Positions 34,464-60,306 of a stretch of 64,000 bases of DNA are shown one piece after another. This stretch comes from Pleurotus djamor. Its lineage: Eukaryota > Basidiomycota > Agaricomycetes > Agaricales > Pleurotaceae. A program made the translations under genes and the position numbers. Each line of letters opens with the position of its first letter. Within the stretch, counting starts at the first letter, position 1. Location: the NCBI GenBank assembly GCA_029747585.1, contig JAPEVF010000087.1, positions 1 to 64,000 of the forward strand. Direction: 5' to 3'. The notes below the pieces were generated by a model that ran no database searches, was not told where the DNA came from, and saw only the letters and a program-made list of their open reading frames with translations.

Positions 34464-34978
34464 ATGCAATTCTCCATGAAATTCGCTGTCTTCGCTTTTT
34501 TGGCGCAAGTTGCCTTGATCAACGCCATGCCGGCGTGAGTACCCAGACTCATTGTTCATAAACGGTGGAAATTGACGACGATCCCATCCAATAGTGACTC
34601 CGATGACGGCTATGACAACGGGCTTGTCGCTCGCGGACCAAGGCAGAGACCTACCGTCAGTAATTTTCCACGAGCCACTTTGAATGACCTCGCTAATTTC
34701 CCCGATAGCAACAAGAATGCGAAGTCGCGTGCACCTTAGCTGGTGCGCAAGGGCCTGCATGGACGGATTGTGTCAACCGATGCATGGCCAGCAACTACCC
34801 TTCGCCACCTCCATCCCCTCACAACAGGGCACCCAAGAGGAAGGGTACGAACGGCGGCATCAGGAAGCCAGCACCGAAGAAGACTGGGCCGAAGAAGACT
34901 GGTCCTAAGAGGAAGAGCGCACCCAAGAAGAAGTCTAAGCCTCGCGCTATCGAAGACGAATTCGAGAACTTGTATTAG
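34464..34978 (+). CDS. Single-module twin-CX3C secreted protein (right)
   Basis: Exons 34464-34534, 34595-34655 and 34709-34978 give 133 residues. It is almost identical to the left copy, with Tyr for Asp after MASN, Ile for Val before EDEF, and MPA instead of MPV at the end of exon 1. The cysteines CX3C-X12-CX3C and the KKTGPKK basic repeats are unchanged. This near identity contrasts with the diverged AhpD-like gene beside it. Confidence 0.82.
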
Positions 34979-35155
34979 AATGTCACAAAGTACATCCTTT
35001 GATTTCGTTGACTGTGGTAGAGTAGAACACTGAAAGTCACTGTTTTTATCTGAACCCCTGAGTCCTGTATGACTCCTGGACTTCGCAGCTCGGGATGACG
35101 ATCGTTGATTGGTTGATTGAATATGATTCTACATGAGTATTCAATAGTAGTACAA

Positions 35156-39047: not shown

Positions 39048-40240
39048 CGTGATGAGGATGAACGAAGGGTAGAGGAAGGTCGTAAGGAGCTCGGCTCCAG
39101 CTAGTGAATTGGTTGGATGTCTGAGGTGAGAAGTGACCAGCACTGCTGGAGAATCAACCCATCGAGTACGCCAGTTTTTATATCATTGCTGATCGGGCGA
39201 GTTCCCCATGTCACCCGGGAGGGTGTGTTTGAAGTATAATAGAGCATGCGTTGGTCCCTTGTTGTGAAGTGTCATCTGAGCGGTACTTTTCTGGTTCGAA
39301 AAGGTTGATCTATGGCGAATGTTGGACACAAACTTCCTCATGTTTCGTGCCACCCGACGATCCTAGCTGACCCAGCAGGTGCATTTGAGACACATACAGG
39401 AGCTTCTCTGGATTTTGCGACAGCGTCAATGAGTGTTCCCTCTGAAAACTTGCAGAAGATCATAGTAGACTCACTCGAAGTAGTAACCGGCCTCGTCCCT
39501 GAGTGTGGCTGCATGTACCGAGAGGGTTGTTTGCGGTCCATCGAAACAGCGAGTTAGTGACAGTTCGGTCGACTCGGATCCAACGGTTGGATGCGCGCTC
39601 GACGCGCTGCAACCTTACTTACTACCTTCTCAAGGTAAAACAGCAATCCCCTGGCATCACGAATTGAATGGTGATGGGTGATTTGGGACGGTTAGGTTTT
39701 GGTTAGGGAGTCTCGGAGAGCTGGGCTGAGGGCCTCCTCAGATCGAGACGTGAACGCGTGAACTAATGAGGTCAAGAACAGAGGTAGACAAGACTGACAG
39801 ACGTCTGGATGCACACGTCCAGGACATTACGATGGGCGTCAGAGTTCGTTGGTTCCAAGATGTGGAGGTGGACGGGCGGCGCTAAACAAGATAAAGCCCA
39901 GACGTTGGTAGCAAGTAGTAGCCCGTCACGCAGGAGCCACCATCGGTCGCAAGGAAAATCCAAACAATCTTAAGCAACGATACAGTAAGAGGCAACAGTG
40001 TAAAGAATGAGAAAGTACAATTGATGTGTGTTATAGAAACAATGGAGGTATAAGAAGTAACTATGGTAATCCGTAAAATTCGTGGTCTACGAAACTATGA
40101 ACGCAAGTTGCTACATACACTTCTAGGAGTCTAAAAGGATGTCTATTATATATATATATCAGAAAAGGAAGAGATCAAGAAGAGAGAGAAAATGAAAGTA
40201 AAGGATGGTTTGGTTGAATGAAGGAAAGAACGGATAGCTT
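39048..40240. other. Intergenic (right mirror of 16238-17442)
   Basis: This holds the promoter at 39137-39182 and the 3' flank of the DUF1275 gene. No gene is recognised. A short TA repeat near 40147-40160 is slightly longer than its mirror. Confidence 0.5.
39137..39182 (-). promoter_or_regulatory. TATA box plus palindrome promoter
   Basis: TATAAAA (39176-39182, minus strand) is followed at 33 bases by the perfect palindrome CCAGCAGTGCTGG (39137-39149) and GGTCACTT. It drives the four-module gene starting at 39047. Confidence 0.75.
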
Positions 40241-41301
40241 TCACTTCTGGCCCTCATTCCCAGGAACGAGGAGCCAGGTGAAGCTAACGAAGAAGCGCAC
40301 AACCGTCGCAACTGCTAGAGCACCAGCGGAGCCGATGGTGTGGATCATGTACCAGCCAGAAAGCGCTCCGAGGAAGATGGAGCCTAAGAAGATAAGCTTG
40401 TGATCACGGGAAACGGATTTGCGATGGCAATGGAACAATGAGGGATCGGCCATTAGCTCGATCCAGACGGTAGTGAGGACGACTAGGTCGGGGTGTCAAC
40501 GGAGCATTTAAGAGATAGAACATCGTGACTCACTAGTGGCAGCGAACTGCGTATTCAACCGTCTGGCAATAATGCCCTGCAATCCCAAGCTAGCACTGAC
40601 GAACCCGACACACAAGAAAGTATGGATGTCCGTCCAGCCGAAGGTCTCCTCAATCAGAGAATGTTGGCTGGGGTTGTTGATAGCTTGGTTGATCTTCCAA
40701 ACGGCTATCGAGGCGCCCATCGTGAAGAGTGTTTGTATGAGGGTACCAATGATCAACCATTTCCGAGTGGCTGTTCCGATATGATCCCCAATGCGTCCCA
40801 AGAAAGCACCAAAATTGAAGCTGAGCAGCGAACAAAGGGCTTGTTGGTCGGGTCGGCGTGGTACGTTTTGTGCACTTTCTGGATCAAGTATGCGGGCCAA
40901 GGACAGAGTAAGCTGTGCTATCGGTCAGTCTCTGGAGGGTAATCCTGTGTATGTGTGGTGAGACACTGACCTGGACGAAGTTGCCCGTCTGGAAGCCGCA
41001 CCATACAGAAATAGCGGAGAAGGTGACCGCATCTCTGGGATTCTTGTTGAGATAACGTCATAGGCTAAAGTTGGAGCAGAACTCACAGCAGACCCGTCAT
41101 GAAGCAGTACGCAGCCAAAGGACCCGCAACTTCTTCCGTATCAACTTCAGAGTTGAGAAGATCCCAAAGCTTTGAACGATGACATTGGGTCTGCAGCGAA
41201 ACTTGCTCCGGGTCATAGTCTTCGTACTCGCCCGAATCGCTTATCGAGCCATAGGAGACGGCAGAGCCGTTAGAGCGTAGTCGACTGGTTATTTTGGGCA
41301 T
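40241..41301 (-). CDS. DUF1275 (YoaK-like) membrane protein (right copy)
   Basis: Exons, complement of 41087-41301, 40971-41034, 40534-40912 and 40241-40482, give 299 residues. Protein sequence and splice sites appear the same as in the left copy. The absence of amino-acid differences, in contrast to neighbouring non-coding changes, suggests the gene is under constraint or that the copy is very recent. Confidence 0.88.
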
Positions 41302-43675
41302 GGTCGAGGAAAGACGTCTAGTTTCCGGAGCGTAAGTCTATAGGAAAGAAAAGAAGAAGAAAGGAAAAGGAGACGAGTCAAAAGTGAAAAACGCTGGTTT
41401 CATTTTTATCTTTGATGCTTACCTTGCTTCTCCGGTTTCCGGAAGCGGCAAGGCCTTGGAGAATCACCGCTCCGACGAATGATCGAATCCCGGGATATCG
41501 AGGCATATGCTGACGTAGGTCCAGGCTGCAACCAAGCCAATCAAAACCTCCTTTCACACATGTATTCCCGCTCGTACCTTTACCAGCTGCCACAAATTTT
41601 CCCGCGAAACATAATCAGGAGAGTAGAGCACCAGCAATCCCCAGCACGCTCGCTTGAGCTATCGTTTTGATTCGTCGCCGAACAACGCCAGAGATCGTGA
41701 TAACTGTGTTCGGCTATCCGCATTTCCGTAACCAACCGGCAGAGGGCACAGTACTACAAATTTCGTGTCTTGTTTGGCATGGACCGTGCCTCCAGACCGC
41801 AGGTCGCGTCTATCGATGGTAGCGTATTGGTTGGCAGCTGTATGAACCAATGGTGTGTTGCCATCATTCTTTGGGATAATGCCGAAGTCGACGCCCATTC
41901 GTGGATACACCCGGCGCAAGGTGCGATATGTCCCAGATGGGCAGAACGTACGTATTTTTTGCGAAGGTTTGCGTAGCCGACGTCTCGAACGGTCTATTTG
42001 CCATTTGTATCTGTGAAAGGGTCTTGTCGGCCGTCGACAGCCTATAGAGACCATGAGAAACGTCCATCGAGTGGGCTTTCTCCCAGACACACCTCTTTTT
42101 TGTCAATGCCCTCGACGATTAGCCACGTCCTGCATCCAATTGCGCGGTCTTGTGGGTTGGGCATCGGGAAAAGCAGAAGATGGTCCGGCTACCTTTGTGA
42201 TCACCGCATCTCTGATCCTTTGTCAATTCACACAGTCACATCTTTCTTCCCGCGGTCAACATCGCCCTTTTTGATCATTCAATACTTGCAATTGATTTAC
42301 TTCCTCGTTGGGCCGAATTCGTTGGCACTCAATTCGTACTTCCTATAAGCAATCAACAACTCCGAGATAGAGGACAGTTTTCCCTGAGAGAGAAACTACT
42401 ACTAAACACCGCCCTTATATTCCTCACCTTTGCTCGACTTCAATGAGAAGGACTGGCTTTCTTCATGCTCTTGCGCTGGCTGGTACCGGGCCGCCATGTT
42501 CTCGCGTATATCACTCTTCTCCCATAGACATCCTTTCCCTGGATTTTTCTTCAAAAAAGAAATATCGTTTAACGTCTTCCGGGGATTCCCTCAAATCGCT
42601 ATCTATGGAAATACGGCCCCTACGAAGCCTGTGTATTACGGACCAAATACACGGGATCCAACGCCCCTTCTTGGCCCAGGATGCTTGCACCCCAAAGACG
42701 GAGAAGACATTGCCTCCTTTCAGATAATTGGCATTGTCTTTGCTTGGGCTCGAGTCTGGTGCGCCCTCAGGGCACTGGGTACGGGAAGCCATACATATGC
42801 CTCCTATATTATATGCCTGTCTTGTTAAGAAGGCTAGCGGGCGGTTCTCTAGCTAGCGCTCTGTTCTTGCACGTTTCTCTGGCATCCTCAGGGTGATCTG
42901 ACCTCCTTCCGCCTTGCTGGAGCTATTGTTCCCTGCGCACCACTGTCATAGTGGGTTGACACATCCCTTTTTCTTATGTTTCCAATATGTTTCTGTAATT
43001 CTCCCCATTTAAATTTTTAAGCCTGTACTCCTCATGATTGCGCTTATAAATTAAATTATATTATAAAATCGCTCATCTCTATTCCTCCTAATAGGTGCTG
43101 CCCCCGAGTCCGAGCAACCAACGAGCAACCGCAAATTGGAGGGGACTCGGTCATAGTATGGTGTATGAGACTATGAGTGCTACCGTCACATATTCTCTTT
43201 TTCATTCAATATTCGATATTCGATGTATGTGCACAGCGTCTACTCTCTGCTGACGATCAGTATTTCTGGAAGCAGAAACCTCCTGTCTCCTCCATCACGA
43301 ACCCTCATGTGACCTGGACGCGACGCGTTGTTCAACTTCTTTATGTAATGTTCGAATTTTGGGCTCCCTTCACCCACTTCCCCTCGATGCAGGCTAACCG
43401 CTCTCACCCCAGAAAGTTGCCTACTGTCTTTCCCATATACCTATCCGAACCCCCATGTATCTTCTTCAGCAATGAAACATTCTGCTCTGCTCTGTATCTC
43501 CGTTCTCATCGCGTCAGCGCTCACGCGGCGCCGGGCAGAAGCGCGCAGATGACTCCGACCTCGAGGTGATATCATAAAGGTAATCAGTGACTATGACTAG
43601 GGCTGTAGCTTGGTCTCATAAATACGCGCTCATCGTGTTGACTATTAACCATCAAAGTCCCCCACTTTTTTCATC
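41302..43675. other. Variable patch and unassigned strip (right)
   Basis: From 41302 to about 42090 it is close to the left arm. From 42090 to about 43290 similarity is weak, and the stretch is several hundred bases longer than its counterpart. Part of it (42950-43080) is AT-rich. A frame at 42430-42828 and another at 42443-42727 overlap in different frames; neither has a recognisable family. I cannot identify terminal repeats or a transposase. From 43290 to 43675 similarity to the left 5' flank of ATPase B returns gradually. Confidence 0.5.
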
Positions 43676-46015
43676 ATGCGTCGACGCATCATCCATGGTG
43701 TTCCCTATCTAATTGACGAACCTTCTGCGCCACCCATTGAAACCCCCAAAGAGCCTCCCTCCAGTTCTTTCAACGACTTCGTCAGCGGATTGGGCAGCAA
43801 CTTTATGCAAATATTCGGCTTTTCCTCTGTTCTGGCCGCCACAGGTTTGGGTGGCAATGCTCACTTTGCAGACACATGGAAGGTTTTGCTTTTGGGGAGC
43901 TTGATTGAGGCTGGGAGGCGGTTCTTCAGCTGGGCGGTCGAGAGACTTTCTTTCAGTACGCGTTTCTTTGATGATTATTCGGCTACGAACAGTGTTGACT
44001 TTCTTGCGGTGCAGAATATTCCGTGACGGCGCGTTTTGCTGAAGGCGATCCGGCGTACGAATGGATTATCTTGTTCCTGGTTAGTGTCTATATCAACTTT
44101 TCGCGTCCAAAGTACTGACTCAATCATCGTAGACGGAGAAGAAAGTTTGGCATCGTTCAAGAGACTTTTGGGTCAACTCCAAGACGTCCGCGAGGAAATG
44201 GGGAATCGCGCCCGGTCAAGAAGCTCAGCAACCTCGACCTTCGAAAGAGACGGAAGAGGAGCTGACTGACTACGTTCCCATATACGAGATCCCCCAACTA
44301 TTCAAATGGAAGGGGTATTGGTTGGAAATCCATCGACAATCGGGCGCGTCACAATATAACCCTAGAACTAATGCGTACTCGAACGGCGCAGCTGCCTTGC
44401 ACTTGACGTGAGTATTCACGTCCCACCTTCTCATCCATGTCAATTCACGCAAACACACGCTCTAGGATATACTCATATAATATGTCGATCCTGAAATCCA
44501 TCGTCGACGAGGCGCGTCAACGTTACATCGAAGTCAGCAAGCCCAACGTCATCATCCACTCGTCCGATACCACTGTAAGCCCAACTCTCATCACAGGCAC
44601 GTCTGATCATTGACCCACTGCTTTCACCCAACAGGGGAATCGAGGAGTAGCTTTTACATGGAGCAAAACGAAGAGCAAAGTGCGACGGCCACTGGACTCA
44701 GTGATTTTGCCCCAGGGCGAACTTGAGTCTCTTGTAACCGATGCTCAGGATTTCTTGAACTCAGAGGATTGGTATATTGAGGCAGGGATACCATACCGAA
44801 GAGGGTATCTTCTTTACGGGCCTCCAGGGACTGGCAAAAGTGAGTAAAATATCGTCGTCCATTGATACCTACCTAATACACTATCTCCAGGTTCTACCAT
44901 CTATGCACTTGTTAGTCACCATTACTTGCACGCCTTCACGCTCATAAATTGCTTCCCTCTGTTCAGGCTGGTGAACTCGGTCTCGAGATTTACACGATCT
45001 CTTTGGCTTCTGACTAGTGAGATGACATCTCCTTCCGGTCACTCGTTCGCTAACCCGGCATCCCCAGCATCGATGATACTATGCTTCAAACCGCTGTCGC
45101 ATCAATTCCAAAGCGCAGTATCTTCCTCATCGAGGATATCGACTGTGCTTTCCCTTCGCGCGAAGATGAAGAAGAGAACCCGTCGATGTCTTTCCAAATG
45201 GCTTCTCCTTATGCAATGGGTCCAGCCTTCGTGCAACCGCGCCGCTCAGCCGTTACGATGTCTGGACTTCTGAATCTCATCGATGGAGTTGATAGTGAAG
45301 AAGGCAAATTCTTCATTGCCACGGTATGTTTCCCTACATATCGTTTTCACCATTGGTTGCCTGACGATTCGTGATAAGACCAACTATGTTGACAGACTTG
45401 ACGCAGCTCTCCTTCGGCCGGGCAGAATCGACAAGAGGATTCGATACAACCTCGCTGATGCTCAGCAAGTGCGCTCCCTGTTCCTTCGGTTCTTCCCTGC
45501 ATCCCGCTTTGGAAACGCGTCGCAGAAGTCTTCATTCGATCTCTCCGCTCTCGTCGAAGAGTTCTGTGCTAGCATTCCACCCGAGGAGTTTTCCGTCGCC
45601 GAACTGCAAGGCTACCTCCTCGCCCATNAAAAAATCGCCCATGGACGCTGTTGACAATATCAAAAGCTGGGTAGAGAACGAACGAATGGAACGTCGGGAA
45701 AGGGAGAAAAGAGAAGCGGAAAGAAAAGCTAAACTCAAAGCCGCCAAGGAGAGGCAGAACGCTGGGTTCGGCGGCTCTTTCGGAGCGCCTGCGCCCTACC
45801 CAACAAGTTTCCCTCCAACATTGGGATCGTCGCCCCCGCCTTCATTCTCCACAGCTAACTTTGGCGAAGCATCAATGAAGGAAAATCAGGAGGGTGATGG
45901 TCCTACACACCCTGCACCTCAGGCTCCGATCCAGCCCCCAGCCTCCACAATAGAATCTTCCGAAGTGACAATACCAACACAATCTCGGAGTCAGAGAGCC
46001 TTGTCTGGGGAGTGA
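43676..46015 (+). CDS. BCS1-like AAA ATPase B (right copy)
   Basis: Exons 43676-43955, 44015-44079, 44133-44407, 44466-44574, 44635-44839, 44891-44910, 44967-45016, 45068-45323 and 45379-46015 give about 631 residues, if the N at 45628 is an extra placeholder before six A. Walker A GPPGTGKS ends exon 5, with the last Ser split by the intron. Walker [12 protein letters not shown] is in exon 8. [11 protein letters not shown] and the [14 protein letters not shown] helix are in exon 9. Two codons (Arg-Pro) are inserted in exon 3 relative to the left copy. It precedes ATPase A in the same direction, with about 290 bp between them. Confidence 0.85.
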
Positions 46016-46307
46016 CCTCGCGTTTCCATCGTCTCAGATGATGCACGGCCCACCTCCCCCTCTGTCTGTGTGCCACCGGGTTGCATGTCTTGCCTCGATA
46101 AAAAAAGGTTGTGTCCGTTGCTTCTCACAATAATGCTTCCATGGATATCGAAGGTTGCTGTGTTGCTAATTTGGGATGATTATATTGTTCCCCTATCCTT
46201 GTCCCTGCACTTAGAATGATGGAATCGTGAAGTATAAAAACATGGTCTCAGAGCACAATATGACTCCAGTTCCTATATAAGTTTGCCTTTGACCTTGACC
46301 ACCTTCA

Positions 46308-48655
46308 ATGCACAGACGTCGCTACACACCGAGTCGCCCTGCCATACCTCGATTCTTCGGAGAGAGTCCGACGCAACACCACCCGTACGGACTCCGCGAA
46401 CCCGTCGACTCATCTACCAGTTTCTTGAGTGGCTTGAGCACCAGCTTCATGCAGATGTTCGGCCTATCTTCGCTTGTGGCTGCAACAGGCCTCGGTGGAA
46501 ATTCTCAGCTCACAGATTCCTGGAAAGTCCTCATTTTGGGAGGGTTGATCGAAACTGGGAGGCGACTCTTTAGCTGGGTGTTCGAGAGGTTCAGTTTGAG
46601 TAGGTTTTTCTTCGTTTTTACTATCAGTGACTTATATATGTATCTGACATCCGCTTTCTCGTTCCCTAGAGTATTCCATGACGGCGCGTTTTGCTGAGGG
46701 CGACCCAGCCTATGAATGGATAATTTTGTTCCTTGTAAGTTGCGCAGTTCCATCTCCTCTTTTCGTCGCCACATTACAACCGCGGATAATCTTGCGTTCT
46801 CAGACGGAAAAGAAAGTTTGGCACCGTTCAAGAAATTTTTGGGTCGACTCGAAAACCTCTGCTCGAAAGTGGGGCATTGCGCCCGGTGGAGAAAAGGACG
46901 CCAATTCCAAGGACGACTCGACCGACTATGTGCCCATATACGAGATCCCCCAGCTCTTCAGGTGGAAGGGATATTGGCTGGAAATTCACAAGGAAGTAGG
47001 CCGACCTAGACAACACAGAGCTGATATACCTGAAGCCGCTTCATTGCATTTGACGTGAGTATTGTTCAGGTTCAGGTTGATTCGTCTTTCTGGCTGACCT
47101 TCCTTCTTTCTAGCATCTATTCCTATGATATGTCTGTCCTCAAGTCGCTTATCGACGAAGCTCGGCAACGCTACATCGAAGTTAGTAAACCGAACGTTAT
47201 AATTCATTCCTCCGATTCCATTGTAAGTGCGCCTTAAACATTCAACCTCGCTCGCTCACAATCGGGAATATGATGCAGCGAAGCGGAGGTCCCTTCACTT
47301 GGAACAAAGCGAAGAGCAAAGTTCGAAGGCCTTTGTCGTCTGTTATCCTGCCACAGGGAGAACTTCAATCCCTCCTCTCTGATGCTCAGGATTTCTTGAA
47401 TTCAGATGATTGGTATGTCGAAGCTGGAATACCCTATCGAAGGGGTTATCTTCTTTATGGCCCTCCTGGGACAGGGAAAAGTGAGTAGCTTTCATGGTGG
47501 TAATCGAGACGCGTTCTGACTTACATACAGGTTCTACTATCTATGCCTTGGTATGAATAAATTCTCCTTCTCTCTGATATCCGCGGGTATTGACCCGCCT
47601 ACAGGCTGGCGAACTAGGACTAGAAATCTACACAATATCTTTGGCGACTGACTTGTGAGCAACCTTAATCGTCTTAATCTTTTTGTCGACCCTCGGTAAC
47701 AAACATTCATCTCCAGCGTCGACGACTTGACGCTGCAAGATGCTGTTGCCTCGGTCCCAAAGCGCAGCATCCTCCTCATCGAAGACATCGACTGTGCTTT
47801 CCCATCCCGAGAAGAAGAAGAAGAGGAGGAGTTGAGACAAAGTCGCGACCCATTCTGCGCGCCACCCNTCGCCTTGGGGGGGCCCAATGCGGCGCGGCTC
47901 GGCTGTTACCATGTCCGGTCTCTTGAACATCCTCGATGGCGTCGATAGTGAAGAGGGGAAATTCTTCATCGCCACGGTATGTGATCTTCCCTGCGCCTGA
48001 ATCTAGACGGTTGTCTAACTGCCTTGGTCAGACGAACTACGTAGACAGACTTGACCCAGCCCTCATCCGCCCAGGACGAATCGACAAGAAAATTCGATAC
48101 CGTCTCGCCGATGCCCAACAAATCCGTGCTCTATTCCTTCGCTTCTTCCCAGAATCCCGTTTCGGAGGAAGCTCCGAGAAACCCTTGGATATCTCCACAC
48201 TCGTCGAGGAGTTTTGCGCTGGTATCCCACCTGAAGAGTTCTCCGTTGCGGAACTTCAAGGATATTTGCTGTCGCGAAGACACTCTCCCCTTGATGCCGT
48301 CGCTGATATTCAAGGTTGGGTAGCGAACGAACGGCAAGAACGAGAGGATAAGGAAAAGAGAGAAGCCGAGAGAAAGGCCAAGCTTAGAGCTGCGAAGGAT
48401 AGGGCGAACGGCGTGCCAGGCGTGGGAGGTCCTAGTCATTTTGGTGGACCGATATCACGATATACACCCTTACCGCCGAAGGTCCCGGGATCCATACCTA
48501 CACCCCCACAAGAACTTGCGGGTGTTCAACCCGAGCCGCTTCCTCGAACAAGGCCGACCCCCTCTCTTCCCTCCTTGATCGTCCCTAAAGTTGCCAATGC
48601 TGTCGCCGATCATCTCCAGGACCGGCTCAGTCTAGGGAGTCCGAGCTGGGACTAG
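46308..48655 (+). CDS. BCS1-like AAA ATPase A (right copy, normal stop)
   Basis: Exons 46308-46599, 46670-46734, 46804-47054, 47114-47222, 47279-47480, 47531-47550, 47605-47654, 47717-47976 and 48032-48655 give about 623 residues, counting the N at 47868 as an extra base. Exons 6 and 7 (20 and 50 nt) match those of ATPase B exactly in length, so the two genes come from one tandem duplication. The stop TAG at 48653-48655 is present; it is the 11-bp segment around it that the left copy lacks. A three-residue Ser-Thr insertion of the left copy (exon 1) is absent here. Confidence 0.88.
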
Positions 48656-48922
48656 CGACGCTGAAGTGGTTAGCATTCACAGAGTTCCCTCTACCCCTCG
48701 GTTTTTCTAACACGGTACCAAGTTCGAATTTACAATGTAGCTACTACATCCAATGTGTGGAACCCAATTTCTTGTTTGATTACTTGTCCATAGAAGTCCG
48801 CATAGTATTGTACATAGAGTCCAAGTCGCGCATACGCAAATACACGAGTTATTTTCTTGCTATATGGACTGACATGAGGATCCATACCTTCGAGCGGAGG
48901 GACACAGCGAAGTGGCCTACCT

Positions 48923-49345
48923 TTAAAGCCCACAAACCGACGCGGCGACTTGTTTCGCTGTCACGTCTATCCGGCCGAGGAAAATGGCTTGGCCATTCGT
49001 CAAGTTGTTCATCGCGGTAAGGGCAATGTTAAACCCAGCGGCGGCATGATCAATAGCAAGGACATTAATAGTCCTTCCTTGATATGTGAGAGCCCAACAG
49101 GTTCCACATTGAGGGGAGTTCCATCCTCCCACAGCGGCAGCACCACCGATGAAAGGGAACTTGGGGAGTTTACCGAACGTGGTAATTCCGGTACGGGTGA
49201 TCAGACCGTTCGGGCCATCAGAGCACGCAACGGTGGTAAGAGAGCCGCTCTTATTATCGTAGGTTTGGTCGTACGAAAGGGTTACGGCCGAGGCAAGAGG
49301 GGCGAGAGCGATGATGATGGGAGTGAAGATGGTGGAGAATTTCAT
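48923..49345 (-). CDS. Cerato-platanin family protein 2 (right copy)
   Basis: This protein has 140 residues and no intron. All four cysteines and the blocks LPKFPFIGGAAAV, QCGTCWALTYQG and NVLAIDHAAAGFNIA are as in the left copy. Gly replaces Thr before WNSPQC, and Phe replaces Ser after QAI. Here the neighbouring ATPase A ends before it, so there is no antisense overlap of coding regions. Confidence 0.93.
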   Translation of the reverse strand: MKFSTIFTPIIIALAPLASAVTLSYDQTYDNKSGSLTTVACSDGPNGLITRTGITTFGKLPKFPFIGGAAAVGGWNSPQCGTCWALTYQGRTINVLAIDHAAAGFNIALTAMNNLTNGQAIFLGRIDVTAKQVAASVCGL

Positions 49346-50077
49346 TGTCGGAAGAGGTGGTAGGACGCTTTACTTTGTTCTGTGCAGTAGATTGAGCGAA
49401 CGCTCGCCTTAAATACCGTTTTCATAGAAGACGAGGAAAGACCTCGGTCGCCTGAATGTCATATGCGATGGCGATGGATGACCGTTTAGACGTCCTAAGG
49501 CCGCCTATGTAGTTCCGATGACCAAAGAGTTGGTAGTAGGTCTGCACCAGGCGAATCCAGTTCAAAGTCAATCAAGAAGGGAGACGGAAGTAAATCACCG
49601 TCCAAGAGAGTCTAAGGTCGGTAGTCACATAGTGCGTCGGGTCATGCGCCAGTAGTCCGAGTGGGGACAAGGCGGCTCGGGTGGTCATGTTGCGCATTAC
49701 GTATGGACACTTTGGTCCGACGTCTCGAGAACCTGTGAGCATGCGCCTTGAGCAGTCCTAGATCAGTAGTGAGTTGAGTGAGGAGAAGCTGAGAAATTCG
49801 AGAAGGGTCAACGTCGATCCAGATGGCACGCGGACTTTATTAAAGTGATGTTCCCACTGCAGCAATATTCAGGTGGAGTCCCACTTCCCTGACCCAAGTT
49901 GGAGAATCATTGTTGAGTCGGCTGTCACAATATTCAGGATGGACCTTGCGCTTGAACGCTTGTAGATTCATAATAGAACTATCTTCGCGCCGAATGACGC
50001 CATCTTGACCGTTTCTCAGCTGGCCAAGAAAGGGTATACTTGAGAGCAGCGGTAGTTCTCATGGTCATCATCACAAT
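49346..50077. other. Intergenic (right mirror of 6648-7379)
   Basis: This is the divergent promoter region between cerato-platanin 2 and the glyoxalase-like gene. The TATTTAA element on the minus strand serves the former. No gene is seen. Confidence 0.5.
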
Positions 50078-51152
50078 ATGTCTCCTCCCACCAACACGAT
50101 TGATCATATCGTCCATCTAACGCCACCGGGTTCTCTGAATGAATCAGTTGCCCACTTTGAGCAGTTGGGCTTTAGGTATGGATATCATCATCATGCATCC
50201 TATATATCAAAGCCAAATATATTGATCAACCCAGGGTAATACAAGGAGGGACACATGCAGATGGACTCACCAGTAACGCGTTGGTGGTAAGTTGGGTATC
50301 ATTGAGTAAAAAAAACGGCGAGACGTATCTCCAAACTTCCCAGATCTTCGAGGATGGATTCTACCTCGAACTCATCAACTTCGTCAAGCCTGCGTCAGAG
50401 TACCCTCCCGGTACCCCAGAGCGCCAGCGACGCGATTCCCATCCATGGGCTGAGGCCTCCAAGCAACCAGGTTGGGTAGATTACGCATTTCTTGGCACTG
50501 GCGATGCCAAAGAAGAGGCAAATACGATTTCCAAGATCATCAACGGTCGTAGCAAGCTTGATGGAAGCGACGTCGAGTATTTGCCAGAGGTGGCCGGTGG
50601 CCGGGTGACACCACAAGGTAAAACTTTGAAGTGGCTGATCACTGGTGCAGCGGCCAAACATGGTCGAGGTGTGTTACCCTTCTTCTGTGGCGATGTCACA
50701 CCGAGAGAATGGCGGGTACGTCGTTGGTGATCCACCCACAAACCACAAACACGTAGTAAGCCATGTGGTCCATTGACAACACCCGGTTACAGGTTCCCAT
50801 AACACAAGACCACTACAACCATCCGTCCACAGCAAAAGGAATCGCACATATCATGTTGCTGTCGTCTTCTCCGGATGATGTGGATCAACTTGCTCGTCAA
50901 TTTACAACGATCATCGGTTTGCCTCCTCAGAAAAATGGAGACGAGCTATTTTGGTCGTTGGAAACCATCACAACTTTACATCCGACGAAACTGCGTCTCC
51001 GCGTGGAGAGTTCGGAAGAGGAACAAGGGAGTCGCGTTTCGGGAGTGTTGGCGAGGATACATGAGGTTGGATTTTGGGTTGAACGAGGGAAAGGAAAAGG
51101 TCCAGCTCTGTCGCCGTATGGTCGATTGGTGTGGGTGGAACTCGAAGAATAA
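50078..51152 (+). CDS. Glyoxalase-like domain protein (right copy)
   Basis: Exons 50078-50175, 50235-50286, 50344-50715 and 50793-51152 give 293 residues. The 57-nt second intron (50287-50343) has a multiple-of-three length and no stop, so retaining it would add 19 residues without shifting the frame. A canonical GTAAGT and TTCCCAG favour splicing. The protein is as in the left copy, with scattered substitutions such as TIIGLPPQKN versus TIIGSPPQKN. Confidence 0.82.
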
Positions 51153-51408
51153 TTTTAGGCGCCCTCCTTTTCTCCTGTCCGTCCATAGGAGTTAACTCTG
51201 ACCATCGAGTTGGGACCTTGGCGGGTGGTCGAAAGCAAAGTTATTGTAGTTTATTCACTGCTACGGCGTGCTGAGGCCAATGGTCTATATGAGCCACATA
51301 CGAGTGTAGTAGCCATTCACTGGGACGTATAAAGAGGGCTCCTCAAACTGTCGGCCCTCGCTCCATCACCTTCTCATTATCGACATTCAAACGACTACTC
51401 CCAGTCCA

Positions 51409-51645
51409 ATGGCCTTCCCAGAACTCAGTACCCATCTTCAAGGATACCCGCCGAGCTGGTTCACCAACTGCCTGAACTCGGAGGACTTAAATTTTGACCC
51501 TGTTTGGACGCGACCGCAGAAATATGGGGACAAGGACCGGAGCGAATGTGCTCAGAGTGGACTTCAAGGTCACGAAACCGGCACATTAGCATACTCAAGT
51601 GACGAAACAAAAACGATTGGGATTCAGTTCAAGTATACAGGATGA
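51409..51645 (+). CDS. Small hypothetical protein, full length (right copy)
   Basis: Seventy-eight codons start MAFPELSTHLQGYPP and end QFKYTG. A TATAAAG element lies about 80 bp upstream. Apart from the nonsense difference in the left arm and one Asn/Ser change, the two proteins agree. No domain or signal peptide is recognised. Confidence 0.45.
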   Translation: MAFPELSTHLQGYPPSWFTNCLNSEDLNFDPVWTRPQKYGDKDRSECAQSGLQGHETGTLAYSSDETKTIGIQFKYTG

Positions 51646-51791
51646 TAGGCTATGTATAAGTTGTCCATGTCCGTGTCCGTGTAAAACATGATGTCACGTT
51701 AAAATTCATTGTGCATGTCTGCAAGGAAATGTCAGCACAAGGAAGTAACTGAGACGCAGAGGCTTACCATATGTTATCATCTGAACATCGA

Positions 51792-52208
51792 TTAAAGCCC
51801 ACAAACTGAGCTGGCGACCTTAGTCGCAACAGCATCGACGCGTCCCAAGAAGACGGCTTGGTTGTCCGTCAATACATTCATAGCATCGAGGGCGATGTTG
51901 AATCCATTGTCCGTGTGATCAACGGCAAGGACATTGATGGTCTTGCCGTTATAAGTGAGAGACCAACAAGTCCCACACTGATCGGAGCCCCAGCCAGACA
52001 CAGCAGCAGCTCCCCCGATGAAGGGGAACTTGGGGAGTCCACCGAATGTCTGCGCCTTGGAGAGCAACCCATGGGGTCCGTCTGAACAGGCGACCGAGGT
52101 CAATGAGCCGTTAGGGTCGTCGTAGATTTCGTCAAATGAGACGGTGACGGCGCTTGCGAGGGGAGCAAGGAGGAGGGCGGCAGAGAAGAAGAGAGCGAAG
52201 AACTTCAT
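51792..52208 (-). CDS. Cerato-platanin family protein 1 (right copy)
   Basis: The protein has 138 residues. CGTCWSL replaces CGTCWAL, and the signal peptide reads LFFSAALLLAPLASA. The other family features, the four cysteines and the probable 3' UTR intron (minus strand, about 51718-51768) are as in the left copy. It is the fourth cerato-platanin gene in the window. Confidence 0.93.
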   Translation of the reverse strand: MKFFALFFSAALLLAPLASAVTVSFDEIYDDPNGSLTSVACSDGPHGLLSKAQTFGGLPKFPFIGGAAAVSGWGSDQCGTCWSLTYNGKTINVLAVDHTDNGFNIALDAMNVLTDNQAVFLGRVDAVATKVASSVCGL

Positions 52209-53187
52209 GATGAGTTGGTTGATTGGATTGGCTTGTGTTGAGTAAACCGCTGAAGTTGTAAGCAGAACTGCTTGGGATGTTTACCACTATCCCAGTCGCC
52301 TTTTATGCGACACGACCAGCATCTGAATAGAGCGCCGTGTAGGCCAGCGAAGACCGTTCATAGCACTTGCTAGATCCTACAGGCAAGTTGGCGAGCAAGT
52401 GAATAGGAGAAGCACGTCGGGTAGGCCAGTCACAGAAGTCATTTCCGCGTTTCAGACAGTCCGGCATAGGCTTGTGACCGCCTAATACGGTGAACGGTGC
52501 CCGTAGTACAGCAAAAGAGAGATGAATTATTCATAAAGATGTGGAGCCAGCGTTAAGCGAGGTGGCCGACGCCTATGATTGCGATGCATGGGTTTTCCGT
52601 TTTCGCGAGTTGGAANGGCCATAGGGGGCTGGACTCTCCGCCCCTGATTGAGAACCTACCCCAGAATCCAAAGTCAGCGTCACAAAGGCTTGCCAGCAAA
52701 CATCCAAGATCATCGCGTAGGGTCGGTACTTCCGGGACGAGGCCAGCATCTTTTCAAGAAGATATGTGAGAATCGCTATTGAACGTTCAACATTGAATAC
52801 GAGTACACGAGTCTCTCAACCTGAAACGAGATTCACCTTCTCGAGCTTGAGCTTAATAGGCGACGGTGTCCACACGAAGATCGTCGGTGTAAGACAGCGT
52901 CCTCTGGTCAAGCTCTGGTGATATGTACTTTTGTAGACCAAATTGAGCGGGTCTTACGATGCGGCACCGGGTGACCGCGACGACGATCCCGAGTCCCTTT
53001 GGCAACGTCATGGATGCTCCTGACTGGCCTCCTGACGCGGTGGAGAGGACTCAGACGAGGCTGACATCCACGTCTCGAGCCTTCAACCTTGCTTTCGTCC
53101 TCCCCCTCATATATAGCTAAGAAAGACACCCAAGGGCTGGTCCCATAATCGCCCCATCTCCCCAACCACACAATCCTAGCATCCACG
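52209..53187. other. Intergenic (right mirror of 3540-4512)
   Basis: This contains divergent promoters. The TATA box for cerato-platanin 1 is changed here (TTTTATGCGAC on the plus strand, so CATAAAA on the minus), unlike TATAAAA in the left arm. That may weaken this copy. There is one N at 52616. No gene is seen. Confidence 0.5.
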
Positions 53188-53640
53188 ATGAAAGTCACTC
53201 ATTTGGCACGACAGGAGGAGAGGGACACACTTGCCATTTTAGGAGTTGCTTCTCCGTCACACAACCTACATGGTACTGACATCGCTCTGATATGTGAGTC
53301 TCCGCATATTCGCCGTGGTATTGTCGCTGAACCTTGGTGTTGTTTGTCTTTTGTTCAGGTGTCTTCGCCGTTCTCCTGTGCTTCACCTTCTCGTACCTCG
53401 TGTTCTGGAAGGATCCGAAGACCCACAGGAGGTCCCGTGTGTTCCACTACTTCCAAGATATCTTTGCACCCCGGAGAAGCAACCTCAGCACCACTCGCCC
53501 AACAAGGTCTAGTGGATATTGGAGGAAGGACGCCGAATCCACACTGGGGTCAGGTGAGCCATCCTTTTCTAGNAAAAACCTTNGCATATTTCGTTGACGT
53601 CCATGCGTCCTTCATCAAGATGCTCATCTATCTGATATAA
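53188..53640 (+). CDS. Small single-pass membrane protein, unknown function (right copy)
   Basis: Exons 53188-53293 and 53359-53640 give 128 residues, if one of the two Ns (53573, 53583) is an extra base. The helix ALICVFAVLLCFTFSYLVFW is unchanged. Ile/Val and Asn/Asp-type changes occur in flanking parts. The upstream TATATA element is at about 53109. Confidence 0.5.
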   Translation: MKVTHLARQEERDTLAILGVASPSHNLHGTDIALICESPHIRRGIVAEPWCCLSFVQVSSPFSCASPSRTSCSGRIRRPTGGPVCSTTSKISLHPGEATSAPLAQQGLVDIGGRTPNPHWGQVSHPFLXKTXAYFVDVHASFIKMLIYLI

Positions 53641-54904
53641 GTGACGTTGAGAAGAAAGCACTCGAGTGGCGACAATCGACTTACAAACCTAATCTCAAAG
53701 ATGGAAGGTGGCATCGGCTGATGAAGTGGCCCTCTCGGAGAGCAGCCTCGGAAGCGAAAACCATTATCCTGCCGATAGCAGACAATAGAGGAGCCAGCGC
53801 CCTTAATGTTTCGCCCTCGAAGAAGTCACAGTCGCCAACTCCAATCCAACCCCTTCCCCCTGTATACTTTCGGTCATGAGGCGTCGTGGGGAGGAAGAAC
53901 AAGGCACTGGGGCATGTCGGTTTAGGGAATGGGTTATTTATAGATCGTCGCGTGAAGAACGTTCGTTGTTGTTGTTCCCATGCCATCGCCGCTTTTGCGA
54001 TGACCGGGCGTCAGCGTTTGCGCAGGGGGGTGCACACTCGCCCATTATTAGAGATCATGTTCCCGCGTTGTTTGTGAACGGCTTGTTATTGTGCACGAAC
54101 TGAAAATCATTTTTCATCATACTCTGCGGGGATCCATCAACATTCTCCGTGCCAGAATAGNAAAGTGAAAAAAAAACTTCCCGCACGCACATCAAGGTTG
54201 ACAGAGTGCGGTTGGGTGACACGGAAAGATCAATGGAGGTAGACAGTCGGTTTACCCAATCAGTTCTGGTGTCCACACCGCACATGCTCCGTTCTCATGG
54301 CTGCAGATAGATGAAGGCAGAGCCGCGCCAAGTCGAAATGATAACATCAATTGAAAGAAGGCTGGTTCAGCGTTGAACGCGAGCAAGACGTAAATCAACA
54401 GGTCGTCGTGGTTCCATTTACATTCCATGTGGAAACCATGCTCTGGAGGCAAATTAAGGGGTAGAGGTTGTGATGAAGACAGTGAGAAGCGTCTAAGGCG
54501 TCTTCTTGCCTATCGTCCGTCCATGACAGTATAGGCAATTGAGCACTGTGCTCAAGAGCGATTGCGTCGGAAAGGAGCGATGCGACGCTTCCATGGGGTG
54601 GCTGACTGGCAGAATCGGATTGATGGGAAGGAAATGGACTTTCTACCTCAACGTCAGAGAATAGCTGTGAGAAGGCGATGGATGATCTCAGCGAGCTATT
54701 TCCAGGTCCCAACATTGCCATGGACTCTCAATCTGCGCATAGGGAAAAATTCTCATGAAGCTCCGATTGGATGGTAAAACGGAGGGGGAGCCCAAATCGA
54801 TGGTAGCTCGGCCTAGGTCCCGAGGAACATTTGTGAGAGCATAAATAGGTTCGCAGAGGGAAACGTACCACGCTTTCCTCCCCTCCCCCCGTTTACCTCA
54901 CACC
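53641..54904. other. Intergenic (right mirror of 1824-3087)
   Basis: The micro-exon gene promoter lies at the right end (CATAAATA at about 54838). There is one N at 54161. No convincing gene is present. Confidence 0.5.
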
Positions 54905-55683
54905 ATGAAGTTCACTCTCATCTTCGCGAGCCTGGCATTCGCATCGATAACTCTAGCTGCCCCAGTGGTGAGTCGGCAGACATTTGAAGATAGCTGGGTC
55001 CTGACCGTACCGTCATAACAGGAACCGAGATTCCCGGTATGCATGCCATACTAGTTTTGTCGACAGGCGTATTGATCGAGGTCTCTTATCTGGCTAGTCT
55101 GAGAGACGCGAGGCGCTCTCAGGAGTGGTGAGTACACCTAGTGACCCTGACCGAGACGCAATTGAATATTGACGACGAATATTGCAGGCAGCCGACTGGA
55201 GGCGTGAGCCCATGTCCGGTGTTGTACGCCCATCTCCATGAAACGTGGTGCACTTGCTCATCGACATCTGTCAATAGGCTGCTGACTGGAGACGGGAGCA
55301 AGATACGTCAGATCTTGTAAGTTGGCCATCATCTGATGGAATGCCCCATACAATACTGATTAACCAACTTTGACTAGACCAAGCGCGAAGCTATGTCCGG
55401 AGTGGTCGGTTTCCCATAATCATCATCATCATGGGAGTTGACGACTGATGGGTTGTTCTTCGGTATAGGCTGCGGACTGGAGGCGTGAAGCTTTGACTGG
55501 CGTGGTGCGTTGACCTTCCACAGCCCGTATGGAGCGGTCCAGCTGAGTTAAGTGTTATCAGACTGCCGATTGGAGACGGGAAGCTCTTTCAGGCGTGGTT
55601 AGTAGATGGCTTTTAAAGTTAACTCCGCAGCGAGCTTACCTGGTTCCTCGTCGCAGGCCGCCGATTGGAGGCGTGAAGAATGA
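54905..55683 (+). CDS. Micro-exon secreted repeat peptide precursor (right copy)
   Basis: Exons 54905-54967, 55022-55036, 55098-55127, 55188-55223, 55278-55316, 55378-55404, 55469-55504, 55562-55597 and 55657-55683 are all phase 0, for 102 residues. In order they encode the signal peptide, EPRFP, SERREALSGV, AADWRREPMSGV, AADWRREQDTSDL, TKREAMSGV, AADWRREALTGV, TADWRREALSGV and AADWRREE. Introns are about 54-64 nt, so introns exceed exons in length. The donor after TKREAMSGV (GTCGGT) is weak and could be used less. Each repeat straddles two exons with respect to the presumed mature peptide: the C-terminal half of one exon plus the N-terminal ADW of the next. Confidence 0.78.
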
Positions 55684-56707
55684 ACGCCCCACGACCCGAC
55701 CGCAAAAGCACATTCATCCATCGATACTAGCCTGTGGCCATGCAGCCCAGGCGAAGCACACTGCAACTCTCCTTGATTTGGACTTTAGTACTCGAATAGT
55801 TGGCATGCTAGTTATGCTTTTCTTACCGTCATTCCTTTTGGGCACAAGATTCTCTTTGCTTTATCCTTATGTTTCTTCTTTGTACTGCGTTCAATGTAGT
55901 CAGTGTCGTTCCTTCGTTCAATCAATCGCAATTTCCCGACTACGACTGCGCACTATTCCAGAGGAAAATTTCTCGCCTGGGGTGAGATCCAACGCTAATC
56001 GGGTCCAAACAATCCCGAACAGTCCCACAACGGTGGACGCCAAAGCGGATATCAGTGGCTGCAGTGTGCCACTGTGAGATTCTAGTCAGTTGGGCAGGCA
56101 CCTAAAACGGGAGTCGTACCTTGTCCACGGAAATAAGCCGCGTTGGCTTTAGAAATCGCCGGCGGACTGTAAAGTCCTGTCCTATCCATACCGCATGGGC
56201 CATTCCAAATGACCGACAAAGTCGCATAACGTAAGAGTGACGCGGTTTACTGCAAGTTCGAGATGCTCCAAACTTTATGGATTGGTCCTTTTTCCAAGGT
56301 TATGGTCGAGGTCAAGGGCTTTAGCTCCATCAGCTTCGCATTTCCCTTGAGTACCTGCGTTAATTGTCATCGTGGGATGCTAGCAAGAGAGACTGAGGTA
56401 CCTCTCCCGTGCCCCCTTCTGCCGAGGTGGCGAGGATCTGTCCGGGATTCGGGAGAGTCATGTTTAGCACGACATTATCGCAAAGTTAAGCCCTAGGGCG
56501 TCGGGACGATTTTGCAAACGATGCTTCCATCGACAGCCACAATGTTTTACGTCATAGATGAACGGCCTATGTCGCGTAGATGATATCTACGGAGCACGAG
56601 ATAATCAGTGTATCTTTGGAAAGCTTCAACGCACCAGTCATGAGGCATTCGGAATGTCGAGCTATAAATAAGTATCATTGAAGTGAAGGGCTCTACATGG
56701 AAGCTAC
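55684..56707. other. Convergent intergenic (right mirror of 20-1044)
   Basis: This lies between the 3' ends of the peptide precursor (plus) and the S10 carboxypeptidase (minus). No gene or RNA is recognised. Frames such as 55595-56077 are extended by read-through of the last peptide exon region and are not supported. Confidence 0.5.
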
Positions 56708-58688
56708 CTAGAATGAGGTAGTCGCATTAACACTTATTGGGACGTCAAGTATCCACCGGTTAATTAAATCCTATGCTGCATGTCAGACAGTATTCCCAGA
56801 GGATGTGCTATTATAACTCACAAATGCTGCGTCGGCTTGATCGTATGGAACCATATGTCTATAAATGAGACGGGTGACATGAGTAGGGAAATAGCCATTT
56901 AGATAGTGACGGGGTACTCACCCCGCATCATAAACGTTAACGAAGGTGACATTCCCTGCAGAGAAACCGGCGCCACCAGCGCTCCGAACCTCTCCTGCGA
57001 TTCGGCCAGAGGAGGCAGTAAGCCAAGGGATAGCTTTCGCCTTGTTGAACTCCTCGCGGAATTGACTATCCAACAGTTCAACCCAACGCTCGTTTCCCTG
57101 TAAAGTAGAGCGTTTAGCTTGTCAACGGCGTGGGTGGACACTCCGATGACTCACAATGTAGTTACACATGGCATCTAGCCGTCCAAGTTGAGTATACAGG
57201 GTTGAAAGAGCATGTGTAGTAACTCACCAGCGTTGCCAGCATAAACGAGGAGCCGAACACCGTCGTTTACAAGCTCAGGAAGAAGCAGCGCGCTGTTATG
57301 CATACCATCACCTTGGCCGGTGAATGCTCTGTTGACTTCCATATTGCATGATTCGAAGTCCATGGATGGATTTACGCCAAGCTCTGCCTTGTGTGACGGG
57401 TCATTCATCCAGGTTTCGATCCACCCCATTTGCTTGTAGCACAACTCGCCGTCCTTGGATCGGTCACATTTTACGCGAACGTCGTAAGGATTCAGACCAG
57501 ATTCTGTCACAGCAGATACGTGAGCATAGGTAGGGAAGAGGGGAACGAGTGGCACTTACGGAGGAGAGGGGAGAATAGTTGTGTGTTGCAGTAGATGATA
57601 GCGGGCATGCAGGTAAACCGAGAGTTGAACTTATAGCAACTGTTGATTAGCCGTTGGCATGTTGGGATCTTTGTGCGAAGAGAGGCGCATTGAGGGCCGT
57701 CGGTGTCGAAAACCGGGAATGGGCCGTCACAGAGGTAGTCAGCGATGGATCCCATTTGGGTATATGGGTCAGTAAGGCCGTTGGCCAATATGACAGACGC
57801 AAGGTTGATGCGCCGAAGTCCAGGAGTGGGCGCCACGCTAAGTTGCTTATTCTGCTTGTGGATGAGGTTGGCAAAGTTGGGGGCGTACGTGCCGCCGTAG
57901 CTTTCTGCAGCGATGTGGAATGGGACATCGGCGTACTCTGGGAAACGGTTGAGGAAGAGTTCGAGGAAAGCGTACACATCGATGGCTGCCGCAGGAGTAT
58001 TGTTCACGGTAGAGCCGTCGTCGGAGTAGGAGTAGCCGACATTGACAGGTTGGTCGAGGAAGATGATATTGGCATTGGTGTTCCAGCTGTTAGGGTTGAA
58101 CTTGGTGCCTTGCCCATTGTCTGCGATAGCGCAAGGACCAAGCTCGAATAGCAAGCCAGTGGTTGAGCTACAGCCTGGGCCCCCATTGAGCCACAAAATC
58201 AGCGGGGCAGTTTCGGGTGAATTGCGAGCCTCAAAGAACCTTATGGAAATGACTGATTAGGTTGAGACTGCTTCAAAGACAGGAGCCGACTAACCAGAAG
58301 AACAGATGTTTCGAGTCTGAGCCATCAAGATAGCCCGAGTACTGCTTGACAGAGGGATCACATAACTTTGGCTTCGAAAAGCGCAACTGATAATCATGGA
58401 AGTGAGGGTGTGAAACCAATTCATCTACGAGCCACCGTGTCAGTTTCGCGCCAAGTAAGCATAATATGATGGACGCGTACAAAGAAGGCCATTCTGCTTG
58501 ATGTACTCCTTCCCTGAGTGGAACCATGTCTCCAACTCCTGCTTTCCAGATAGGATGGCCTGTGCAGTCGCGTCCACAAGGCTTCCAGGATTACTGAGGG
58601 TCGACGCGCTGAATACAGCTTGTTCTTGAGTGGGGAAAGCGGCAGCAAGCTGCAATGCAAGCAAAAGGAAACTGAGGATGGCTTTCAT
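56708..58688 (-). CDS. Secreted/vacuolar serine carboxypeptidase, family S10
   Basis: Eight exons, complement of 58481-58688, 58295-58424, 57560-58239, 57228-57503, 57155-57174, 56922-57097, 56822-56858 and 56708-56770, give 529 residues. There is a signal peptide (MKAILSFLLLALQLAAAF), then a short propeptide. The oxyanion segment is LWLNGGPGCSS. The catalytic Ser is in AAESYGGTYAP, Asp in the VYAGNADAMCNYIGN block (its codon split by an intron) and His in GHMVPYDQ. The last exon supplies DLINRWILDVPIS, the usual terminal helix. It removes C-terminal residues from peptides. S10 includes both carboxypeptidase Y and the Kex1 enzyme that trims Lys/Arg after Kex2 cleavage; no C-terminal membrane span is seen, so it is nearer the soluble type. 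It is next to two Kex2-type precursor genes. Confidence 0.9.
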
Positions 58689-58917: not shown

Positions 58918-60306
58918 TCAAACGCGGGGACGGGGCTTCTGCTGACGCGGAGGAGAAGGGGGAGGAGTGGGAAGACCTCTGGCCATGCAGTTTTCGACAC
59001 ATTGCTGCCATCCGGCTTGAGTTAATTGACCAGCAAGCACGAGCATAGTACAAGCTCCTTCACATTCAGCGCGCTGTAGAATTCTATGAGCATGTCGGAC
59101 ACCACAGTCGTTAGTAGAAAAACGACTCACGGTGGCACGTTTGGAGAGCGCTTCCTCGCCAACGGAGCGCCTGGCTTTCTTTCCAGCCTTCTGACGGGGA
59201 GGAGAAGGGGGAGGGGTGGGAAGTCCACGGGCCATACAGTTCTCAACGCAGTTTTGCCATCCGGCTTGAGTGAGTTGACCAGCGAGGACGAGCATCGTGC
59301 AGGCACCCTCACACTCAGCTCTCTGTAGGCATGGGTCGGATGAGTCATACGGAGTGATTGGCAGGAAGTTTCGAGTAACTGACGTTAGCACGCTTCGACA
59401 GAGAACCTTCCTCCTGTGAGTCAAGAGAGCGACCGCCCTTTCGTCCGGTACGTGGTGGAGAAGGAGGAGGAGTCGGGAGACCACGAGCCATACAGTTTTC
59501 AACGCATCCTTGCCATCCGGCTTGAGTTAATTGACCAGCGAGCACAAGCATGGTACAAGCGCCTTCGCACTCAGCGCGCTGCGAGTGTGGATGAGTATGA
59601 GCTTGTGGAACGGAAGCAGAGACATGACTGACGGTAGCACGCTTCTCTACGGAACGAACTTTCTTCTTGCCTCCCTTTTGACGTGGAGGAGAGGGAGGAG
59701 GCGTAGGGAGGCCACGAGCCATGCAGTTCTCAACGCAGCCTTGCCATTGAGCCTGAGTGATGGAACCAGCGAAGACAAGCATAGTACAAGCTCCTTCGCA
59801 CTCCGCTCGCTAGAGGATAGTCAATACACTGAACAAGGTGGAGAGGATGTGGATACGCACCGTAGCACGTTTTTCGACGGAGCGAACTCCTTTCTTCCCA
59901 CCATTTTTCGTTGGCCTCTGTCCGTTTTGTTGAGGGAGGGGAGCGGGCGCAGGAGGCGGAGTCGGTGGGGGCGTAGGCAGTCCGCGAGCCATACAGTTCT
60001 CGACACAGCCTTGCCATTGAGCTTGCGTGATTGAACCAGCGAGGACGAGCATTGTACAAGCTCCCTCGCACTCGGCACGCTGGAGTTGGGTATTAGATGA
60101 GAAGATGTCTGAATGTCAAACGGGCTACGTACAGTAGCGCGTTTCGCCAGACTACTAGTATAGTCGGCTTCCTCAGCACTGTTGAAATCAATGAATGAGT
60201 TCGTCATCGGGACCATTCACAAGATGGATACGCACATTGGTGAGGCAAAGACGTCAGAGACCTGCACAAGGACTGCGAGGACAATGAATTTCATCGAAAT
60301 TTGCAT
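58918..60306 (-). CDS. Five-module twin-CX3C secreted precursor
   Basis: Seven exons, complement of 60236-60306, 60133-60178, 59861-60079, 59633-59809, 59384-59578, 59131-59322 and 58918-59073, give 351 residues. The signal peptide is MQISMKFIVLAVLVQVSDVF. Exon 2 ends SLAKRAT. Exons 3-7 are five modules RAECEGACTMLV..(Q/S)(I/L)TQA, with CX3C-X16-CX3C and the second pair CVENC. Each is followed by MARGLPTPPP(S/T)PP and a basic linker. Exons 3-6 close with EKRAT, SKRAN or SKRAT, that is, Kex2 sites just before the next module. The last ends QQKPRPRV. All module boundaries are phase 0. It is the largest array in the family here and lies outside the palindrome. Confidence 0.87.

Follow-up and report, generated by a model that had tools for sequence, protein, structure and literature searches.

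A predicted octapeptide precursor gene of Pleurotus djamor with its repeat units on separate small exons

The octapeptide gene and the window around it

The window analysed here is the stretch 1-64000 of contig C1273 from a Pleurotus djamor assembly of 55.86 Mb in 1413 contigs, all of which was searched. At 54905-55683 on the forward strand we model from the sequence a precursor gene with nine phase-0 exons and eight GT-AG introns:

54905..54967, + strand: exon 1, signal peptide MKFTLIFASLAFASITLAAPV, judged by eye; exon end GTG, followed by the donor gtgagt
55022..55036, + strand: exon 2 (15 nt), EPRFP, the least certain exon; present in both copies
55098..55127, + strand: exon 3 (exon model), SERREALSGV, with the first dibasic site and the first half of LSGVAADW
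55188..55223, + strand: exon 4 (exon model), AADWRREPMSGV
55278..55316, + strand: exon 5 (exon model), AADWRREQDTSDL, with a divergent tail
55378..55404, + strand: exon 6 (exon model), TKREAMSGV, followed by a weak donor
55469..55504, + strand: exon 7, AADWRREALTGV; holds the sole exon difference between the copies, synonymous, at position 55474
55562..55597, + strand: exon 8 (exon model), TADWRREALSGV
55657..55683, + strand: exon 9 (exon model), AADWRREE and the stop

The exon lengths (63, 15, 30, 36, 39, 27, 36, 36 and 27 nt) are each divisible by 3, and the introns, all running from GT to AG, measure 54-64 nt. This is an ordinary intron size for a fungus; the small elements here are the exons. 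The joined coding sequence of 309 nt gives 102 amino acids and a stop and reads MKFTLIFASLAFASITLAAPV-EPRFP-SERREALSGV-AADWRREPMSGV-AADWRREQDTSDL-TKREAMSGV-AADWRREALTGV-TADWRREALSGV-AADWRREE. Its N terminus, MKFTLIFASLAFASITLA-APV, looks by eye, without a predictor, like a canonical signal peptide, and a TATA-like ATAAATA can be seen about 58 nt upstream of the ATG. In-frame stops lie inside 7 of the 8 introns, and the remaining one (59 nt) shifts the frame.

The initial annotation had proposed a repeat precursor of nine phase-0 exons, and this proposal is borne out by the joined 102-residue frame, by the intron stops and frameshift and by a second copy with an identical protein. With its splicing predicted from genomic sequence, we regard the nine-exon structure as confirmed at these coordinates. 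The weak points of the model are exon 2, the least certain because a single 130-nt intron across it would likewise keep the frame, and the donor of intron 6, which is GTCGGT. Exons 5 and 6 (55278-55404) are odd in further respects: exon 5 ends in QDTSDL, and exon 6, besides its weak donor, starts with TKR instead of the AADWRR or TADWRR seen in the other units. In simulation, dropping the two together would leave a regular array.

Several other genes are recognisable in the window. A BCS1-like AAA ATPase lid domain lies at 47927-48655 (+), and reading frames similar to it by eye occur in both arms of the palindrome described below, at 7705-8787 (-), 10709-11353 (-) and 45365-46015 (+). Each arm also carries a cerato-platanin gene, at 51792-52280 (-) by Pfam match and at 4450-4929 (+) by eye. 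Scans of the window with Rfam (gathering threshold) and for tRNAs found nothing, and a scan for sigma-70-type promoters and terminators, not designed for fungi, gave no excess over shuffles. Among 14 peroxidase matches in the assembly, two exon pieces match best PDB 4bm1 (MANGANESE PEROXIDASE 4), which we take to be a P. ostreatus protein; 86 of 96 residues of one piece are alike, counted by eye. Such matches point to Pleurotus or a near relative, with the reservation that peroxidases have paralogues.

Two copies in a near-palindrome

The gene occurs twice on the contig, within a large inverted structure:

1..56726, no strand: near-palindrome bearing both copies, with arms 1-13221 and 43491-56726 alike at 95.6% and inner pieces from 94.6% down to 78%
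1045..1823, - strand: mirror copy of the octapeptide gene, exons 1823-1761, 1706-1692, 1630-1601, 1540-1505, 1450-1412, 1350-1324, 1259-1224, 1166-1131 and 1071-1045; identical protein

The same nine exons had already been ascribed to the mirror gene in the initial annotation, rightly so. The copies differ at 1 of 309 exon positions, and synonymously, against 14 of 470 intron positions (Fisher p = 0.007). The flanks, 600 nt per side, differ at 11 of 1198 positions, which is indistinguishable from the exons (p = 0.48) and lower than the divergence of the intron core (13 of 398; p = 0.003). Since the flanks are as little diverged as the exons, the contrast between exons and introns reflects, at least partly, a raised rate in the introns, and the argument for selection that exon conservation might offer is blunted. 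Nine single Ns occur in the window, several of them at breaks of the ungapped arm alignments.

Across the 55.9-Mb assembly a degenerate pattern for the repeat, ADWRRE[AP], matches at 6 places, all of them within the two copies and three in each; the reversed pattern has none. No further paralogue of the octapeptide gene was found in the assembly beyond these two, and a search of viral contigs by pattern gave 3 pattern stretches, none of them a relative. Chance or artefact as the source of the gene was rejected on the reversed control, the comparison of the copies and the peptides published from mass spectrometry (MS).

Both tested arm segments have two near-identical copies each, all on this contig: the gene segment 54880-55857 and the segment 6410-8062, the latter with three weaker partial matches besides. 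For the centre of the palindrome (24000-26000) the second copy lies on another contig, C387, and is 93% alike. The comparison with C387 covered 59 kb beyond its position 35000. In this part C387, too, forms a palindrome about the shared centre, and its arms match the inner arms of the window (18949-22489 and its mirror) but not the outer ones: window 1-18948 has no match longer than 300 bases there. If two haplotypes, X-C-Y and X'-C'-Y', were mis-joined at inverted repeats beside C, the products would be X-C-X' and Y-C'-Y', which is the pattern observed. The mirror gene, treated at first as a second gene, is therefore better read as an allele, most likely that of the other nucleus, with two haplotypes joined head to head. 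A true second locus within a real 56-kb palindrome is unlikely: the palindrome is contiguous in the assembly and C387 is palindromic too, as this reading would have it, but if the palindrome were real, up to four copies of an arm segment, rather than two, would be expected in an assembly of two nuclei.

Predicted processing, relatives and function

The precursor contains seven dibasic RR/KR sites, which part its internal repeats in the manner of a Kex2-processed repeat protein (KEP). They are followed by EA four times and by EP, EQ and EE once each, which places a Ste13-type XA/XP dipeptide after 5 of the 7 and agrees with the Kex2 plus Ste13 pattern first noticed in the sequence. Computed trimming yields LSGVAADW (2 copies), MSGVAADW (2), LTGVTADW (1) and a leftover EQDTSDLT; the three octapeptides are those originally predicted, and the calculated [M+H]+ is 818.404 for LSGVAADW, 836.361 for MSGVAADW, 862.431 for LTGVTADW and 705.320 for the shorter SGVAADW. 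The gene thus encodes a secreted-looking precursor from which short peptides, LSGVAADW and MSGVAADW among them, are probably cut.

By analogy with the known pathway, Kex2 would cleave after RR/KR, the basic residues would then be trimmed by a Kex1-type carboxypeptidase, and EA or EP would be taken off by a dipeptidyl aminopeptidase of the Ste13 type; linear LSGVAADW (2), MSGVAADW (2) and LTGVTADW (1) would be released, and further trimming would give SGVAADW. Secretion, the order of trimming and the constitutive splicing of the gene are steps that we infer. Searches of the assembly gave predicted enzymes for this scheme: one match to P_proprotein (Kex2-type P-domain) on contig C222 and three to DPPIV_N at a single locus on C480, the latter a predicted Ste13-type enzyme. 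A reading frame of the serine carboxypeptidase S10 family at 57507-58256 (-), 1.8 kb past the octapeptide gene, is no obvious partner in KEP trimming, because among PDB chains it matches carboxypeptidase Y best (E 1e-57) and Kex1 far more weakly (E 1e-24).

The initial annotation had assigned one exon to each repeat. This holds for the repeat unit and fails for the peptide, as each octapeptide is shared by two exons: exon n ends in xSGV or xTGV, exon n+1 opens with AADW or TADW, and in every one of the five predicted octapeptides an intron falls in the middle, leaving 4+4 residues. Because the core is divided in this way, each octapeptide would exist only after correct splicing. On the gene model, then, the mature octapeptide is assembled by splicing across an exon junction, a point absent from the initial annotation.

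Of the three distinct octapeptides predicted, two, LSGVAADW and MSGVAADW, are identical to reported Pleurotus core peptides. In fruiting bodies of P. ostreatus, MS detected MSGVAADW, SGVAADW and LSGVAADW from KEP 1091723; in P. eryngii it detected the first two of these, there from KEP 1439342. Synthetic standards were used for both (PMC9769878). The same paper remarks on the Ste13 motif and the common -AADW ending of these KEPs and suspects an N-terminal misannotation of the P. eryngii protein; the string SGVAADW is present in it and in a review (PMC10417677). In PMC7329392, KEP 1091723 figures among the six proteins taken as putative pheromone precursors of Basidiomycota. The novelty of the peptides, as first presented, was thus overstated, and the check proposed there, conservation of the repeat units in relatives, turns out in favour of the gene, as peptides with this sequence are made by P. 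ostreatus and P. eryngii (PMC9769878). The gene belongs to a known peptide family.

Our gene shares MSGVAADW with both KEPs, LSGVAADW with 1091723 only, SGVAADW as a trimmed form, and the Ste13 signature XA/XP after the dibasic sites; it differs in LTGVTADW, predicted here and absent from the reported peptides. The main texts do not give the exon structure of either KEP. The gene appears, from its sequence, to be orthologous to both, and this orthology rests on the identical core peptides because full sequences and gene structures of the homologues are absent from the main text. KEP 2599 of Lentinula edodes (SGTGEASAADW) resembles it in the C-terminal -AADW and the repeat layout, and has a longer, different core. 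Taken together, the locus very probably holds a Ste13-signature KEP, an apparent orthologue of the Pleurotus KEPs, which would be spliced from nine exons and release linear peptides.

Two other classes of precursor have a similar layout. The initial annotation had considered a ribosomally made, modified cyclic peptide of the dikaritin type. Ustiloxin-type dikaritin precursors are likewise secreted, Kex2-cut repeat proteins, and there are 37 exon-level UstYa-family matches in the assembly; as a comparison figure, a DUF3328 (UstYa) gene lies close to 103 of 1680 KEPs of basidiomycetes (PMC7329392). But none of the 37 is on contig C1273, in agreement with the earlier statement that no UstYa-type enzyme is seen near the gene, the 102-residue precursor has no Tyr, and the Pleurotus peptides detected are linear (PMC9769878). 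The cyclic reading is consequently one we find barely credible.

A mating pheromone like ascomycete alpha-factor is also highly improbable. Alpha-factor precursors share with ours the repeats and, as predicted for ours, a signal peptide and Kex2/Kex1/Ste13 maturation; their repeats differ from the present ones in that introns separate the latter. The peptide itself is different and is not a known basidiomycete sex pheromone. Those pheromones are a-type (PMC9769878) and are not Kex2/Ste13 repeats (PMC6339444); moreover, the protein is identical in both copies, unlike that of a mate-recognition gene. A search for the STE2 receptor gave 0 matches in the genome and 0 in 14 control genomes as well, so that absence is not shown by it.

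As for function, such KEPs have been suggested to be hormones without a role in mating (PMC6339444). For the peptides we would guess at a signalling role outside the cell, as diffusible messengers of fruiting or vegetative mycelium; interaction with other organisms is, also as a guess, about as likely. Knockout of six KEPs of C. cinerea gave no phenotype, a result that lends no support to a developmental signal; the authors of that work favour a role towards other organisms (PMC9769878).

Repeat exons, cassettes and splicing

It appears that the octapeptide gene is not the sole precursor in the window with its repeats on separate exons. Two cysteine-rich genes served for comparison:

58918..60306, - strand: P2, a KEP gene in which five repeat exons (unit RAECEGACTMLVLAGQLTQAGWQGCVENCMARGLPTPPPSPP..KRAT) follow a signal-peptide exon and a pro exon
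37695..39047, - strand: P1, of the P2 family, with four repeat exons; unit R[AS]DCQAACNLLLLAGQITQDQYDGCVSRCIAERIRTPPPTPPRP..KRDT
17649-18712, + strand: mirror of the P1 repeat region

The repeat exons of P2 measure 219, 177, 195, 192 and 156 nt, all multiples of 3, and those of P1 237, 237, 255 and 219 nt. Every repeat of either gene has a phase-0 exon to itself, and the junction falls two residues past KR. The two proteins are related (43% over 357 columns), but no kinship of the octapeptide precursor with either is evident: its best blastp hit to P1, at E 0.43, lies in the signal peptide, and there is none to P2. The module of P1 and P2 is C-x3-C-x16-C-x3-C with a Pro-rich tail and KR. Its AF2 prediction is a helical hairpin with helices at 2-13 and 19-32, where the mean pLDDT is 89-92 for residues 1-30 and 70.8 overall, and pTM is 0.47. 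Pfam gave no match on reading frames over the repeats, a profile of the module reached a best E of 0.2 against PDB sequences, and Foldseek found no PDB match at E <= 0.001. Plant alpha-hairpinin precursors likewise repeat four-Cys C-x3-C...C-x3-C modules behind a signal peptide (PMC11591084), and the predicted helical hairpin would be common to both; P1 and P2 differ from them in being fungal, with dibasic sites between the modules, one module per exon and no significant PDB fold match. They are alpha-hairpinin-like in Cys spacing, and an antimicrobial role is possible as a guess. Look-alike units of the form C-x3-C-x12-C-x3-C occur at 28027-26914 (-) and also at 21189-21254 (-), 33058-33123 (-) and 34718-34783 (+), and the first 30 kb of another contig, C819, hold three P2-like repeat places, at about 0.2-0.7, 11.5-13 and 26.2-28 kb.

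Introns tell how such an array may have grown. Introns 3 and 4 of P1 are homologous (z 8.3, reached by 0 of 200 shuffles), intron 5 bears a weak likeness to intron 3 (z 2.9, reached by 2 of 200), and hence an exon-plus-intron cassette was duplicated in P1. In P2 the best of 15 intron pairs has only z 2.0. The octapeptide gene has 0 of 28 pairs above z 2, and cassette duplication is therefore not directly visible in it. Its repeat units differ at many synonymous codons (exons 4 and 7, for example, disagree at 4 of their 5 fourfold sites), and so its duplications look old, with the peptide nearly unchanged. Growth by cassette duplication, shown for the neighbour P1, would thus apply to the octapeptide gene as a later stage of the same mechanism, for which independent intron gain is the alternative.

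Fungal precursors with one exon per repeat were not found in the open-access literature at the level of titles and abstract openings, among the matches listed. Three papers on KEPs (PMC6339444, PMC7329392 and PMC9769878) lack 'exon' and 'splic' in the main text, and 'intron' occurs once, as 'intron-less' (PMC9769878). Within this scope the new element is the architecture; the peptides themselves were already known.

Separate exons raise the question whether splicing chooses the peptides, as the initial annotation had suggested, with repeat exons alternatively included and the ratio or identity of the peptides varying with tissue or condition. Every exon is a multiple of 3 in phase 0, so single exons are frame-neutral and could be skipped in frame. 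In simulation, the hybrid MSGVTADW arises when exon 7 is lost, LTGVAADW when exon 8 is lost and EQDTSDLAADW when exon 6 is lost, the donor after exon 6 being weak; skipping exon 4, or exons 5 and 6 together, yields only peptides already made. Intron retention is usually commoner than exon skipping in fungal genes with short introns, which speaks against such a choice. A regulated microexon has been reported for Trichoderma Xlr2 (PMC11121469), and for one precursor some of the peptides are reported to be restricted to particular tissues, but the authors ascribe this specificity to processing of the precursor or the peptides (PMC9769878). On balance we hold regulated inclusion to be very unlikely, and splicing of the octapeptide gene would be constitutive.

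A broader proposal can be formulated, to which we give little credence as a whole. Secreted peptide arrays of this lineage would grow by duplication of exon-plus-intron cassettes instead of coding repeats, with the splice site inside the octapeptide or, in the cysteine-rich genes, beside the Kex2 site; regulated inclusion of frame-neutral exons would set the mixture, hybrids MSGVTADW and LTGVAADW included; and two precursor families whose sequences show no evident kinship would share the principle within 64 kb.

Should exon cassettes be a common mode of growth, gene callers that drop exons of 15-39 nt would miss or truncate such precursors. Repeats separated by introns could, in addition, escape the collapse of repeat arrays. 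Finally, a gene structure is now tied to a peptide family detected by MS in edible oyster mushrooms, whose peptides, under the present model, would span splice junctions.
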